From Spirochaeta lutea (lineage in GTDB: Bacteria > Spirochaetota > Spirochaetia > DSM-27196 > Salinispiraceae), in contig NZ_JNUP01000065.1 of NCBI RefSeq assembly GCF_000758165.1, forward strand, positions 147,359-211,358: a DNA stretch of 64,000 nt. Direction: 5' to 3'. A program made the translations under genes and the position numbers. A model generated the notes under the pieces. That model ran no database searches. It had not been told where the DNA came from and saw only the letters and a list, made by a program, of their open reading frames with translations. This document shows, one piece after another, positions 31,431 to 38,271 of the stretch; the first letter of the stretch is position 1; every line of letters begins with the position of its first letter.

Positions 31431-31462
31431 GCCGGAATGCCGCGAGGTGTTTCGGCTTTTTT
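31431..31462 (+). terminator. rho-independent terminator after ssb
   Basis: GCCGGAA (31431-31437) pairs with TTTCGGC (31450-31456, one G-T pair), followed by six T. It is 110 bp after the ssb stop and separates it from the trp leader. Confidence 0.65.
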
Positions 31463-31485: not shown

Positions 31486-31514
31486 TTGACCCCGGAGGAA
31501 TTTCCTTTTAAGCT
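31486..31514 (+). promoter_or_regulatory. candidate trp operon promoter
   Basis: TTGACC (31486-31491), 17 bp, TAAGCT (31509-31514), preceded by a nine-A tract that could act as an UP element. The -10 is only 7 nt before the leader-peptide ATG, so the leader peptide would be translated from a leaderless mRNA. Confidence 0.45.
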
Positions 31515-31521
31515 GAACCCC

Positions 31522-31593
31522 ATGAAGCGTTACTGTATAGAGAAACACTGCAAGCGAAATCTCAGTAACATTTGGAACTGGCGCCCCATGTAG
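31522..31593 (+). CDS. trpL: trp operon leader peptide
   Basis: A 23-codon frame, MKRYCIEKHCKRNLSNIWNW followed by RPM, with Trp codons at positions 18 and 20 (31573-31575 and 31579-31581). It ends just before overlapping RNA stems and a strong terminator upstream of trpE. Two Trp in 23 residues, at the edge of the first RNA stem, is the hallmark of ribosome-mediated attenuation. No Shine-Dalgarno is present. Confidence 0.75.
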   Translation: MKRYCIEKHCKRNLSNIWNWRPM

Positions 31594-31656
31594 GATTGTT
31601 CCCGGGTGCTGCTGTGTCCTAAAGGTCCATCCGCTCTCGGGATGGACCTTTTTTTT
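31581..31656 (+). promoter_or_regulatory. trp attenuator (alternative hairpins plus terminator)
   Basis: Three competing stems are readable. 1:2 = GCGCCC (31581-31586) with GGGTGC (31604-31609). 2:3 antiterminator = CGGGTG (31603-31608) with CATCCG (31628-31633). 3:4 terminator = GGTCCATCC (31624-31632) with GGATGGACC (31640-31648), followed by eight T (31649-31656). Segment 1 begins in the second Trp codon, so a ribosome stalled there would free segment 2 to form the antiterminator. All three stems were found by eye. Confidence 0.75.
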
Positions 31657-31718
31657 AGGTCAGGGATTAACGGGGATGCTAAACCTTGTATTGAGATACG
31701 ATGAGGAGCGGAGGATTC

Positions 31719-33167
31719 ATGGATGCGAAGAATCAGGTTGTAAAAATAGTTGCCGGGGAGAGGTTCACACCACTGACCTTGGCCAAAAAGCTCGGAGCCC
31801 GGATCATTCTGGAGAGCTCCAGTTTTCAGAAGGGAAGAGAGCGCTACAGCGTGCTCATGGTACAGGAGGCCTTTCAGGTTGAGCAGAGAGACGGTCAGGT
31901 GTTTTTTAGTCCTGCGGATCGGCCGTTAGAGCGCTACCGCCTGAAGAGCAGCGCCAGAGACATTTTGGATGTACTCCTATACTTTGCAAACCAGCATAAA
32001 CCCCCTCACCAGGACTTTCCCTTTCCGGCGGGAGGCGTCGGATTTTTAAGTTTCGAATTCGCCAGGTACTGCGACACCATACCCTTCCGGGATAAACCGA
32101 ATAGTCTCGGACTCCCCGAGGCCCGGTTTCTCTTTGGACACGTATTCATCATCTTCGATCATTATACGGATCTCCTGTACATCATCGGGTTGAATTACAA
32201 AGAACACAGCATTGACCTGCATGCCGCCCTAGAGGAAACCGAGGCCCGCATTAACGATCTGAACTTCAATTATCTGCAGGATGATGAGACTGCCTATCCC
32301 TGTGTCAGGCTGACCGGCCACGAAGCAGATGAGGAATACAAGAAAAATGTTGAGGCCATCCGTAGGGAGGTGGTAGCGGGAAACCTGCTCCAAGGGGTTC
32401 CCAGCCGGCGGCTGCAGTTTAAGACGGAGATTCCGGCGTTAGAGGCCTACCGGAGGCTGCGGAGGACCAATCCGAGTCCCTACCTGTTTTACCTAAACTT
32501 TGGGGAATACGAGTTGTTCGGTGCAAGCCCTGAGGTCCATTGCAAGGTTAAGGAGGGACGGGCTGTGGTCCGCCCCATTGCCGGTACCCGGCGGCGGGGG
32601 GCTACCCGGGCTGAGGATCTGGATCTGGAGCGGGAACTTCTAGGGGATCCCAAGGAGCGGGCCGAACACCTCATGCTGGTGGATCTTGGCAGGAACGACC
32701 TTGGCCGGGTCTGTGAACCGGGAACGGTGCAGGTTAAGGATTATATGATAATCGAGCGATATAGCCATGTCATGCATATTGTGAGTCAGGTGGAAGGCGA
32801 TTTACTTGAGGGTAAGACCGGCGCCGACGCCCTGCGGGCTACCTTTCCTGCGGGAACGGTTTCCGGCGCTCCGAAGATACAGGCAATAAAGACCATTGAC
32901 GCCCTGGAAACAGAACGGCGGGGGTTTTATGCCGGGGTCGTGGGGTATATGGAGCCCGGGGGTAATCTGGATACCTGTATAGCCATCCGCAGCGCATTGA
33001 AACAGGGCGAGGTTCTGACCTTGCAGGCCGGCGGGGGAATTGTGTTTGATTCCAAGGCTGATCGGGAACTGGAGGAGACCAACGAAAAACTTGGGGCGTT
33101 GCTTCGGGCCATCGGCGCTGAGCAGCAGCCGTTGAATCACCCTGAAAAAAGCGAGGAAACCCGATGA
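31719..33167 (+). CDS. trpE: anthranilate synthase component I
   Basis: 482 residues from ATG 31719, which has GGAGG 6 nt upstream. Converts chorismate and ammonia/glutamine to anthranilate with TrpG. C-terminal chorismate-binding motifs: [67 protein letters not shown]. An ILESSS element near residue 34 matches the LLES region that binds feedback Trp, so end-product inhibition is likely on top of attenuation. Stop overlaps the trpGD start by 4 bp. Confidence 0.95.
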
Positions 33168-34831
33168 TTGTATTAATCGATAATTATGATTCGTTTACCC
33201 ATAATCTGTACCAGTATCTGACTGAGATAACCTCTTTGGAGGTGCGGGTTGTTCGAAATGACCGGATTGATGTCCAGGGGATTCGGCGTTGGAAGCCGAG
33301 CCATATCATTATCAGCCCCGGACCGGGACGGCCCGAGGATGCCGGGATCAGCCTGGAGGTGGTGAAGGCCTTTGCCGGGGAGCTGCCTATTCTTGGTGTT
33401 TGTCTTGGGCACCAGGCTATAGCCCAGGCCTTCGGTGCGCGGATCGTGAGCGCCCAGGAGATTGTTCACGGTAAGGCTGAACCCATAACCCTGGATGGTA
33501 AGGGGTTGTTCCGTGCGATTCCCAGCCCGGGGGTGTTCACCCGGTACCATAGTTTGGCGGTGGAGGAGAGTACCCTGGGGGAGGAGTTCGAGATTACCGC
33601 CCGGGCGGATGATGGAGAAATCATGGGAATTCGCCATCGGGAGTTTGTGCTCGAGGGTGTCCAGTTTCATCCGGAGTCCATCGCCAGTGAGTACGGGAAA
33701 ACACTGCTTCGGAACTTTTTGAACTACCGGCGTCAGCCCTTCGTAGGCGCCCAGCTTCTGAGTGCCATCAGCCGGGGAGAGGATCTTACAGCCGAGCAGG
33801 CGGAGAGCTTTATGGAGGAGCTTACCGAGGGAAACCTGTCGGATATCCAGATAGCCGGGTTTTTGACTGCCCTTAATACCAAGGGAATCGCCGCCGACGA
33901 GATTGCCGGTTGTGCCCGGGTGCTCCAGCGCAAGCGGGTGAAAATCACCAGTTCCAAACCGTGCTTGGATACCTGCGGTACCGGTGGGGATGGTCTGGGG
34001 ACCTTCAATATTTCCAGTTTATCGGCCTTGGTAGCATCGGCCTGCGGCGCCCGGGTGGCCAAACACGGGAATCGGGCGGTGAGCAGCCGGAGCGGTAGCG
34101 CAGAGTTCTATAAGGCCCTGGGGTTTGTTATAGAGCTCAGTCCGGGGGATACCTCCGCCCTGCTGGAGCGGAACGATTTCGCCTTCCTTTTTGCACCCAC
34201 GTACCACGGCGCCATGCGGTTCGCTGCTCCTGCCCGGCGGGAACTCAAGGTAAAGACAATAATGAACCTTCTGGGCCCCTTGGCGAATCCTGCGGCGGCG
34301 GATTATCAGCTCATCGGCGTGTACAGTGAGGACCTTTGCCCGGTTATCGCCCGGGCCGCCCATATGCTGGGAATCAAGCGGGGGATGGTAGTCCATGGCC
34401 GGGACGGCGAGGATGAACTTTCGGTGGTCACGACCAGCCGGGTGGTGGAGTTCGATGAACAGGGCAGGCTGACATCCTACGATTTTGACCCTGCCTCCAT
34501 TGGTATTTCCGGGTTTACCATTGATGATTTAATCGGTGGCGATGCAGACCTGAATGCGGAGCTTGCCCGGCAGGTGGTACGGGGCCAGGGGGTTGCCGCC
34601 ATCCGAGAATCCGTCTGCCTGAACGCGGGGGCGGCATTAAAACTCTACGGTCTTGCCGGTTCTATAAAAGAAGGGTACCAGATAGCGAAAGCCGCCCTGC
34701 AATCCGGGAAGGTAGCCAGGAAAATTGAGGATACGATCTTCCTGAGCCGGCGTCTTCGGGAAGAGGCAGAGGCGGCGGAGGCTGGCGAATCGGACAAATC
34801 CCTCCAGAGCACCGGAGGTCGCGTTTCATGA
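33164..34831 (+). CDS. trpGD: fused anthranilate synthase glutaminase / anthranilate phosphoribosyltransferase
   Basis: 555 residues. Residues 1-190 are a class I glutamine amidotransferase with triad Cys80 (GVCLGHQA), His169 and Glu171 (QFHPES). From ~195 on is Trp[38 protein letters not shown] (PRPP loop), [16 protein letters not shown] and [13 protein letters not shown]. The fusion has the same order as in enterobacteria. ATGA overlaps join it to trpE and trpCF, so translation is coupled along the operon. Confidence 0.95.
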
Positions 34832-36300
34832 ATATCCGGGATGAGATCGTAGAAAAACGCCGTCAACGAATTGCCAGCCACGGGCATACCATGGGTTGTT
34901 CTGTTCCTGAGGAGCGTAGGGTACCAGTGCTTCACTTCGGATCCGATCCTCTGGTTATTTGCGAGGTAAAACGCAGGAGCCCGAGTAAGGGAGTCATTGC
35001 TGAAGAATTAGATCCGGTGAAGCAGGTCGGTTTGTATGCCCAAAGCGGCATCACCTCGGTGTCCGTTTTAACCGAAGAAGACTATTTTTCTGGCAGCCTG
35101 GCTGATTTGATGGCAGTGAAGGAAGCCTTCCCTGGAGTAGCGGTCCTGCGCAAGGATTTTTTGGTGGATGTATCGGATGTGGATGTCAGCTACCGTGCCG
35201 GAGCCGATGCTGTTTTATTGATTGCCTCCATGCTGACTCCGCCGCTTCTCGGTGCCATGCTTGAACGGGCCCGGGGGCTGGGCATGCAGGCCCTTGTAGA
35301 GGTCCATTCCCTGGAGGATGTGGAGAAGGTTCGTCCCCTCCGGCCTCAGCTTATGGGAATCAATTCCAGGAACCTGGAGACCTTCCAGGTTGATCTCCTA
35401 GACCCCCTGGTGTTGTTGCCTGCCATTGATTGGCCGGCCAGGGTGGTTTTCGAGTCAGGAATCTTCCAAGCCCACCAGGCATTCTGGGCAGGCCAGGCGG
35501 GATTTTCCGGGGTTCTGGTGGGAGAGGCGGCGGTTCGGAACTCCCGGCTGCCCGGTCTATTAGGGCCTGCCCTGGAACAGGGGATTGCGGCTGGACGGAA
35601 GGGCCCGGAGTCCTTTTGGCCCGTGCTTGCCAGAAGGTTGTTTAGTCTGCGACTCGGTGTCGGTGGAGGCCGTAAGGGCTATGGCGGTCCACTGGTAAAG
35701 ATCTGCGGAATAACGAACCGGGAGGATGCAGAGCTAGGGGTTTCCCTTGGAGCGGATGTTCTGGGATTAGTCTTTGTTCCCAGCCCCCGGCAGGTCGGCA
35801 TGGAAACTGCAGCTGCTCTGGCGGATCTGCCGGTGTTAAAAGCCGCTGTGGTGTACGCCGGGGGGCCGGAGTTTGAGACCGCCCTGGAGGCTGTCCGGAA
35901 TGGATTTATTGATGTGCTCCAGCTCCATGGGGATGAGGAGCCTGAGGAATGTTGGCAGATTCCCGTGCCCTGGTATAAGGCGCTTCGGGTGAAGGATCGG
36001 AAGGTTGTAGACATGGCCTCGGCGTATTTGAGCCCCCGGATCTTATTCGATGCCTACCACCCGGATCTCCGGGGAGGTTCGGGCAGAACCATGGATGAAG
36101 GCTCATTGGAGGCGGCGGGTAGACAGCCGGGCCCCTGGTTGGCCGGTGGATTGAACGACCGAAACATCCGGGGCTTTCTGGAGGGCTACGAGCCGGAACT
36201 TGTGGATGTTTCCAGCGGTCTGGAGGCTGAGCCGGGGAGGAAAGATCCGGAGAAGATGAAACGGTTTTTTGAGGAGATTCATAATGTCAGATCCCGATAG
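34828..36300 (+). CDS. trpCF: fused indole-3-glycerol-phosphate synthase / phosphoribosylanthranilate isomerase
   Basis: 490 residues. The N-terminal ~265 are [50 protein letters not shown] and GVLVGEAAV. From ~288 is [24 protein letters not shown] with the catalytic Cys, [22 protein letters not shown] and [10 protein letters not shown] with VDVSSGLE near the end. Together they turn PRA into indole-3-glycerol phosphate. A linker of Gly/Arg residues joins the two barrels. The end overlaps trpB by 17 bp. Confidence 0.95.
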
Positions 36301-37537
36301 GATAGTGCAGAGTTTTTTTGGTGATTTTGGGGGACGGTACGTAGCGGAGGTGCTGAGGGCACCCCTGGATGAGCTGGAAGTCGAGTTTATTACGGCTATG
36401 CAGGATCAGGAGTTTCTCCGCCTGTACCGCAATCTCTTACGGGACTTCGTTGGAAGACCCACCCCGCTGTTGTATGCAGAGAATACCAGCCGTGAGATCG
36501 GCGGCGCAGATATCTATATAAAACTTGAAGGCCTCGCGGCAACTGGGGCCCATAAGATCAATAACGCCCTGGGTCAGGGATTGTTGGCGAAGCGGATGGG
36601 CAAAGGCCGGGTTATAGCGGAAACCGGGGCGGGACAGCACGGGGTCGCAACTGCGGCGGTCTGTGCGAAGCTGGGAATACCCTGCCGGGTGTACATGGGA
36701 GAGGTGGATGTCCGACGTCAGCGGCCTAACGTGTTTTCCATGGAGCTTTACGGGGCGGAGGTTGTTCCGGTAAAGACAGGATCCAAAACCCTGAAAGATG
36801 CGGTTAACGAGGCTCTGCGGGACTGGGCTTCCAGTTTCCAGGACACCCACTACCTGCTCGGCTCTGCCCTGGGACCGAGCCCCTTTCCTGATATGGTTCG
36901 GGAGTTTCAATCAGTCATCGGGCGAGAGCTGATTGAGCAGACCCAGGAGCGGGGGATTGTCCCGGATGCCATGGTTGCCTGTGTGGGCGGTGGATCTAAT
37001 GCCATCGGTTTTTTTGCCCCCCTTCTTGAGCGCCGGGAGATACGGATGATCGGGGTTGAGGCCGGAGGCCGCGGATCTGCTACGGGAGATCATGCTGTTC
37101 GAATGGAGGGCGGCGGCCGTCTCGGTATCGTTCAGGGGTACAAGAGCATGTTTTTATTGGATTCGGACGGCCAGGTACAGGATACCCATTCTGTGAGTGC
37201 AGGATTGGATTATCCGGGCATCGGGCCGCAGTTAGCCTACCTGGGAGCCAGCGGGAGAGTAGAGTTCACCCGGGCATCGGACCAGGAGGCCCTGGACGCC
37301 CTTCGGGTATTCGCCCGAAATGAAGGGGTAATTTTCGCCCTTGAATCTGCCCATGCCGGAGCCCAGGTCCTGAAAACCGCCAAGGAACTCGGGCCGGGGA
37401 AGACGGTAATCGTGAATATGTCCGGCAGGGGAGACAAGGATATTTTCATTACCGCTAAGGAGCTTACACCCCAGACCTGGAAGGATTTTATGCAGCGCGA
37501 GGTGCAGGAGATAGAAGCAAAGGAGAAACAATCATGA
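36284..37537 (+). CDS. trpB: tryptophan synthase beta chain
   Basis: 417 residues from ATG 36284 (GAGGAG 8 nt upstream); the ATG at 36269 is less likely. PLP Lys91 is in ATGAHKINNAL, followed by GKGRVIAETGAGQHGVATAA, CVGGGSNAIGFFAP (phosphate loop) and GLDYPGIGPQL. Condenses indole and serine to tryptophan in an alpha2beta2 complex with TrpA. The residues before the Lys (LEGLAA) differ from the usual LEDLNH, a mild divergence. Confidence 0.95.
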   Translation: MSDPDRIVQSFFGDFGGRYVAEVLRAPLDELEVEFITAMQDQEFLRLYRNLLRDFVGRPTPLLYAENTSREIGGADIYIKLEGLAATGAHKINNALGQGLLAKRMGKGRVIAETGAGQHGVATAAVCAKLGIPCRVYMGEVDVRRQRPNVFSMELYGAEVVPVKTGSKTLKDAVNEALRDWASSFQDTHYLLGSALGPSPFPDMVREFQSVIGRELIEQTQERGIVPDAMVACVGGGSNAIGFFAPLLERREIRMIGVEAGGRGSATGDHAVRMEGGGRLGIVQGYKSMFLLDSDGQVQDTHSVSAGLDYPGIGPQLAYLGASGRVEFTRASDQEALDALRVFARNEGVIFALESAHAGAQVLKTAKELGPGKTVIVNMSGRGDKDIFITAKELTPQTWKDFMQREVQEIEAKEKQS

Positions 37538-38271
37538 CCCACCTGATGGCCCATATGATACCCTACTTCCCGGATTATCCCACCAGCTTGGAGGCCGCCC
37601 GAGCCTTGATAGATGCCGGTGTGTCTTTCTTGGAGATTCAGTTTCCCTTTTCCGACCCGACGGCTGACGGTCCTACCATCGAGGCTGCCTGTACAACAGC
37701 CCTTGCTCAGGGGTTCTCGGTGGACCGGGGGTTTGAATTTGTTAAGGCCCTGGCGGGAAGGGGGCCGGAGATAGTTATAATGACCTACGCGAGTCTGGTA
37801 ATATCCCGGGGGGTGGACCGGTTCTGTAGAGATGCAGCCGCCGCCGGTGCTTCCGGCGTAATAGTCCCCGACCTGCCTGTGGACAGTGATGAGGGTCTTT
37901 GGAACGCTGCGGAGAAAGCGGGCCTTACCGTCATCCCGGTGATTGTTCCCACGACCTCGGAGGAACGCTTACAAAAAATTGCCGGCGTTAATCCCCGGTA
38001 CATTTATTGTGCTCTTCGTACGGGCATTACCGGAACGCGAACCGAGCTTGGGGCAGAGAACCTGGCCTTTCTGGATAGGGCGGGAAGGACCGGAGCTAAG
38101 ATTCTGGCCGGCTTCGGCATCCAGAGCCCGGAGCAGGTGCGTACCCTAAAGGGGCATGTGCACGGAGCTATTGTCGGTTCCGCTCTGGTTCGGGTGATCA
38201 GCCAAGCAGCGAGTCCTGAGGCCTGTTATGAATCCCTGTTGGGTGTGGCCCAGGAGCTTGTACGGGCTTGA
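37534..38271 (+). CDS. trpA: tryptophan synthase alpha chain, short N-terminus
   Basis: 245 residues. Glu34 and Asp45 (FLEIQFPFSDPTADGPTI) are spaced as the catalytic pair of TrpA; GVIVPDLPVDSDEG, YCALRTGITGTRTEL (loop 6) and ILAGFGIQSPEQV (phosphate site) follow. It starts directly at MTHLMAHMIPYFPDYPTS, lacking the ~15-residue first helix of most TrpA proteins. The ATGA overlap with trpB fixes the start, so the shortness looks real. Confidence 0.92.
   Translation: MTHLMAHMIPYFPDYPTSLEAARALIDAGVSFLEIQFPFSDPTADGPTIEAACTTALAQGFSVDRGFEFVKALAGRGPEIVIMTYASLVISRGVDRFCRDAAAAGASGVIVPDLPVDSDEGLWNAAEKAGLTVIPVIVPTTSEERLQKIAGVNPRYIYCALRTGITGTRTELGAENLAFLDRAGRTGAKILAGFGIQSPEQVRTLKGHVHGAIVGSALVRVISQAASPEACYESLLGVAQELVRA

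Follow-up and report, generated by a model that had tools for sequence, protein, structure and literature searches.

A predicted leaderless trp attenuator with a probable repressor operator inside its leader ORF in Spirochaeta lutea

The stretch of Spirochaeta lutea DNA analyzed here (64,000 nucleotides, called the window throughout; the source genome is a 3.5-Mb assembly of 69 contigs) very likely carries, ahead of trpE, a ribosome-mediated trp attenuator whose leader peptide would be translated from a leaderless mRNA. In our reading this is classical ribosome-mediated attenuation in a leaderless form, joined with what is probably a repressor operator lying within the leader ORF itself. The evidence comes from the elements of the window, from their counterparts in related genomes and from the distribution of a TrpR-family gene.

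The trp operon and its leader region

The operon reads trpE-trpGD-trpCF-trpB-trpA on the forward strand, its genes being named by Pfam and NCBIfam. It comprises trpE (31719-33167), which has its own Shine-Dalgarno sequence (GGAGGA) before the ATG at 31719, a trpGD fusion (33164-34831; NF011201 above cut-off, and Pfam domains), a trpCF fusion (34828-36300; IGPS and PRAI domains), trpB (36284-37537; TIGR00263 above cut-off) and trpA (37534-38271; TIGR00262 above cut-off). The TrpG-TrpD and TrpC-TrpF fusions agree with a preliminary description of this DNA, which had spoken of a fused-gene trp operon. Upstream, an ssb-like gene, named by sequence only, is divided from the trp unit by an intrinsic terminator on the same strand (31431-31462, with a stem at 31431-31456 and then a T run). 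Judged by TrpE, the nearest named relatives are Spirochaetales metagenome bins.

The leader ORF, trpL, extends on the forward strand from an ATG at 31522 to a TAG at 31591-31593 and encodes in 23 codons the peptide MKRYCIEKHCKRNLSNIWNWRPM, which has Trp-rich counterparts in relatives. Its regulatory Trp codons, 18 (31573-31575) and 20 (31579-31581), give the motif WNW; the preliminary description had named a leader of this length with Trp at these two codons, and 31522-31593 matches it exactly. The trp terminator follows at 31621-31656 (forward strand), with a 5' arm at 31621-31632, a loop at 31633-31639, a 3' arm at 31640-31651 and a run of eight T at 31649-31656. Its stem folds at -19.9 kcal/mol, and the eight-T terminator already proposed before trpE is confirmed as ending at 31656.

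Three alternative stems, 1:2, 2:3 and 3:4, had also been proposed. Segment 1 (GGCGCCC, 31580-31586), which overlaps Trp codon 20, finds its partner at 31604-31610 with a fold of -12.5 kcal/mol in context. Segment 2 (31600-31610) takes as its partner either segment 1 or segment 3 of the antiterminator (31633-31642), which lies inside the terminator region; in the latter case 31600-31609 pairs with 31633-31642 at -17.4 kcal/mol. Stem 3:4, as drawn by folding, joins 31621-31632 to 31640-31651. All three stems can therefore be drawn on the forward strand, but within the window 1:2 and 2:3 do not rise above shuffled segments (p 0.26 and 0.10), and antiterminator strength equals the shuffled mean (z -0.16). 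The folding of 31580-31660 is better than that of 200/200 dinucleotide shuffles (z -3.8), and the entire 31520-31660 region reaches a z of only -1.6 against such shuffles. Stem 2:3 keeps its -17.4 kcal/mol with a ribosome stalled on Trp and drops to -4.4 kcal/mol when 11 nt are taken as covered by a ribosome standing on the stop codon. Freeing the terminator 5' arm takes 4.8 kcal/mol with the ribosome on Trp versus 3.0 kcal/mol with it at the stop, values that are unremarkable by that measure, partly because in the window the antiterminator extends into the start of the 3' arm as well. No Rfam leader family matched, at the gathering cut-off or even at an E-value of 5. As stems 1:2 and 2:3 do not outperform shuffles, the window by itself would support only a weak verdict, and it is the relatives, rather than the window, that show the arrangement to go beyond chance.

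Conservation of the predicted attenuator in relatives

By searching the order and the class with TrpE we obtained usable trpE upstream regions from 106 Spirochaetia genomes, and in 35 of these trpE is preceded by a short ORF containing a cluster of Trp codons, together with a terminator; because the genomes are related the 35 and the 106 are not independent and these counts overstate independence, and, some genomes being incomplete, some absences of TrpR may be gaps. An attenuator would be contradicted if relatives had lost the Trp codons or the stems, and the opposite was seen: the 35 loci show a Trp-codon cluster followed by a terminator, 22 of them coming from the window's order and 13 from elsewhere in the class. 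The clusters take the forms WW, WWW and WxW, with WW or WWW in most leaders. Across the order the Trp-rich leader and its terminator are kept mostly in genomes without TrpR.

Averaged over the 35 loci, sequestration of the terminator 5' arm amounts to 8.7 kcal/mol when a ribosome occupies the first of the clustered Trp codons and 4.3 kcal/mol when it occupies the stop, and this low-minus-high difference lies above that of shuffled spacers (mean z 1.5). The probability of the antiterminator goes up with the ribosome stalled on Trp in 30/35 leaders, the reverse being found in 0/35. In one family of the window's order, f2, the stems form a six-segment chain (S1:S2, S2:S3, S3:S4, S4:S5, S5:S6) that is 99-100% paired in five species, against 23-47% for slid versions. 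Formal covariation, to which the preliminary description had looked for support, appears there in a single pair with a two-sided change; as the segments hardly vary, the family demonstrates conserved pairing rather than covariation. The geometry had further been called enterobacterial, which suits the four segments of the window but not family f2, whose six chained segments are like the chain of alternating hairpins in the his and leu attenuators of enterobacteria. From those attenuators the spirochete leaders differ in using Trp rather than His or Leu codons and in being predicted leaderless.

In G002, the nearest relative, trpE is preceded by a promoter and a TrpR-like box (L029/L001), and no attenuator is present. 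Outside the phylum, a Neomarinimicrobiota genome carries a short ORF, MRNGNEKFNCYYWWFFYGGLRRQP, about 334 nt before trpE (L020), together with a terminator-like stretch, and this is possibly a trp attenuator in another phylum.

A palindrome inside the leader ORF

Codons 3-9 of trpL contain an 18-bp palindrome, GTTACTGTATAGAGAAAC (31529-31546), of the form GTTWCT-N6-AGWAAC, which the preliminary description, supported in its leader and attenuator, had overlooked. We regard it as the probable operator of a TrpR-family repressor. The motif stands upstream of trpE in most sampled Spirochaetia and tracks the TrpR-family gene, being present in 62/66 genomes with that gene versus 6/40 without it (odds ratio 88, Fisher p 3e-17); in shuffled upstream regions it occurs in 0.5%. 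The S. lutea genome has two perfect copies only, the one in trpL and one before a second trpB outside the operon (G000:C42:7249-7266, equivalent to L099 1501-1518). A search allowing one mismatch in this genome returned 24 sites versus 38 in the control, at or below background, so the two perfect sites alone were used.

It is unlikely that the palindrome, instead of being a repressor operator, acts as an RNA hairpin or is recognized by a different regulator. A short hairpin could form at the RNA 5' end, and the TrpR-family protein, which passes the PF01371 cut-off and has TrpR as its top NCBIfam match, falls below the cut-off of the curated TrpR equivalog TIGR01321 (43.6 vs 67.25 bits); its assignment to TrpR rests on Pfam, where PF01371 takes in related proteins too, as a B. 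subtilis control that also gave a signal illustrates. However, the palindrome co-occurs with the TrpR-family gene, both perfect copies of the S. lutea genome stand before trp genes, and in the non-attenuated genomes it overlaps -35 or -10 elements or falls in the 5' UTR, as an operator would.

Leaders and palindromes are mostly mutually exclusive, and ten genomes carry both. In six of these ten, all with leaderless leaders (G055, G072, G106, G120, G132 and G142), the palindrome starts exactly at ATG+6, counted from the A, and in the window at ATG+7, so that codons 3-8 (3-9 in the window) belong to the palindrome and encode peptide as well; in four relatives, GTTTCTATAAATAGAAAC encodes V-S-I-N-R-N. 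One half of the palindrome is repeated in the window as CAGTAAC at 31563-31569, whose RNA could pair with GTTACTG at 31529-31535 into a hairpin over codons 3-16, which may act in pausing or be fortuitous.

The promoter and the start of trpL

A -35 box, TTGACC (31486-31491), and a -10 box, TAAGCT (31509-31514), separated by a 17-nt spacer, precede trpL on the forward strand and predict a transcription start at about 31521-31522. The end of the -10 box is 7 nt from the trpL ATG, which has no Shine-Dalgarno sequence and would itself lie at about +1. As a -10 box TAAGCT is a weak match, and a stricter consensus scan returned no promoter at this site.

For the comparison with relatives, the 60 nt before the ATG of each of the 35 leaders were searched and the best promoter was kept; where more than one in-frame ATG was available, as at a few loci, the one closest to the promoter was taken as the start. 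TTGAC is found at the corresponding place in 35/35 leaders, and the arrangement TTGAC-17/18-TAnnnT directly before the ATG is conserved among them. The distance from the -10 end to the ATG is 6-10 nt, without a Shine-Dalgarno sequence, in 32/35 leaders and 17 nt in 1/35; in the remaining two, G048 and G074, it is 41-46 nt and AGGAG is present. By way of control, promoters of equal quality stand 5-11 nt before only 6% of the other ATGs in the same upstream regions. The earlier suggestion that the leader may be leaderless is strongly supported by these comparisons. In Streptomyces lividans, the distances measured between the -10 box and the transcription start are 4-9 nt (PMC8079986), from which a start on the trpL ATG or a few bases away would be expected.

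The two exceptions, G074 (L014) and G048 (L017), have a trpL led by a Shine-Dalgarno sequence, the palindrome sitting in a 5' UTR some 35-40 nt long, and form a natural counterpart of the leaderless leaders.

It is distinctly improbable that the attenuator is real and trpL is not leaderless, with transcription starting farther upstream and translation initiating through GGAGGA at 31494-31499 or a TTG at 31486. The GGAGGA exists and the TTG is in frame. However, the GGAGGA lies about 22 nt from the ATG, within the promoter spacer, and is missing from the other leaders, whereas TTGAC-17/18-TAnnnT next to the ATG is conserved; the upstream gene, moreover, has its own terminator. As the Shine-Dalgarno sequence of trpL, GGAGGA at 31494 was rejected by its spacing and absence of conservation.

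Promoters of the leaderless type are common in the S. lutea genome: a search with the pattern TTGAC-N-TAnnnT-N5-9-ATG gave 55 matches versus 14 for the reversed pattern used as a control. Among the 55 are the TrpR-family gene and several others whose translations point to housekeeping functions. In the TrpR-family repressor gene (G000:C21:157030; L093/L070) the leaderless-type promoter stands right before the ATG. Leaderless genes have previously been predicted in spirochetes at 1.8-6.9% (PMC3160421).

A second candidate for a leaderless attenuator lies elsewhere in the genome on the reverse strand (G000:C27:31243-31282; leader ATG at L077 1503, reverse strand). Its leader, MKHTNLSSQHLHLAAAAAAAATMVGPL, includes a run of eight Ala codons and, together with a strong terminator, stands ahead of a gene for a PLP aminotransferase (NF005334, with alanine aminotransferase as the runner-up match), whose orthologue in G022 and G012 also has a poly-Ala leader upstream.

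Proposed mechanism

From the ORF, its Trp codons, the terminator, the promoter elements and the palindrome, all read from the sequence together with their conservation, we infer the transcription start, ribosome stalling, stem switching and repressor binding in the following model. Transcription would start at the trpL ATG or within a few nucleotides of it, so that the ribosome would load at the 5' terminus of the RNA, no Shine-Dalgarno sequence being involved. With charged tRNA-Trp scarce, the ribosome would stall at Trp codons 18 and 20 and cover segment 1, leaving segments 2 and 3 to pair and RNA polymerase to continue into trpE. With Trp plentiful, the ribosome would be found at the UAG, covering part of segment 2, and the 3:4 hairpin with its eight T would end transcription near 31656. 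Initiation would very probably come under a second control, through binding of the TrpR-family repressor to the palindrome, which would span about +8 to +25 within the leader ORF.

A plain TrpR-regulated promoter, with the leader ORF and terminator as remnants or chance, is highly improbable, since, although the palindrome is present, G002 has the palindrome only and stems 1:2 and 2:3 of the window are not significant alone, the Trp-rich leader and terminator are conserved across the order, mostly where TrpR is missing, and both Trp codons and the -19.9 kcal/mol terminator are intact in the window.

Comparison with known systems

Trp attenuation is a textbook mechanism. The system described here resembles that of Escherichia coli in its Trp-codon leader peptide, in the predicted alternatives 1:2, 2:3 and 3:4, in a U-run terminator before trpE, in a TrpR-family repressor as a probable second control and in the fused trpGD and trpCF genes. 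In E. coli, a 5' UTR bearing a Shine-Dalgarno sequence precedes trpL and the operator overlaps the promoter, whereas the spirochete trpL is predicted leaderless and has its probable operator within the leader ORF.

A leaderless trp attenuator is known from a different phylum: in Sinorhizobium meliloti, the trpL-trpE(G) attenuator RNA (rnTrpL, peTrpL) starts directly with the leader AUG (PMC7298713). There is no Trp-dependent repression of trpLE(G) in that organism (PMC7298713), unlike the spirochete system, where the leader codons hold a probable operator. Leaderless short ORFs also precede amino-acid genes in Streptomyces lividans (leuL, metL and thrL), several of them without a clear terminator, and the sections consulted do not mention an embedded operator (PMC8079986).

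Searches of mostly open-access literature found neither trp attenuation in spirochetes nor a spirochete TrpR regulon, nor any operator inside a leaderless leader ORF, which is not proof of absence. Leaderless trpL (S. meliloti) and leaderless leader peptides (Streptomyces) are known, and the spirochete system and the embedded operator are, as far as we found, undescribed.

Significance

We lean towards the view that in some spirochetes the opening codons of leaderless trp leaders double as the DNA operator of a repressor, and that lineages have moved among repressor only, attenuator only and the fused form. If this is true, a single short stretch would bind the repressor, load the ribosome and begin the Trp sensor. 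Attenuation requires that the first ribosome be in step with RNA polymerase, and, as a leaderless leader would load its ribosome on the RNA 5' end, this set of leaders would be a natural one for testing the loading route against coupling, for which the Shine-Dalgarno-led trpL of G048 and G074 would provide an internal comparison. Likewise, the way in which the TrpR-family gene, the operator and the attenuator occur together or apart across Spirochaetia may show how two controls of one operon replace one another or merge.
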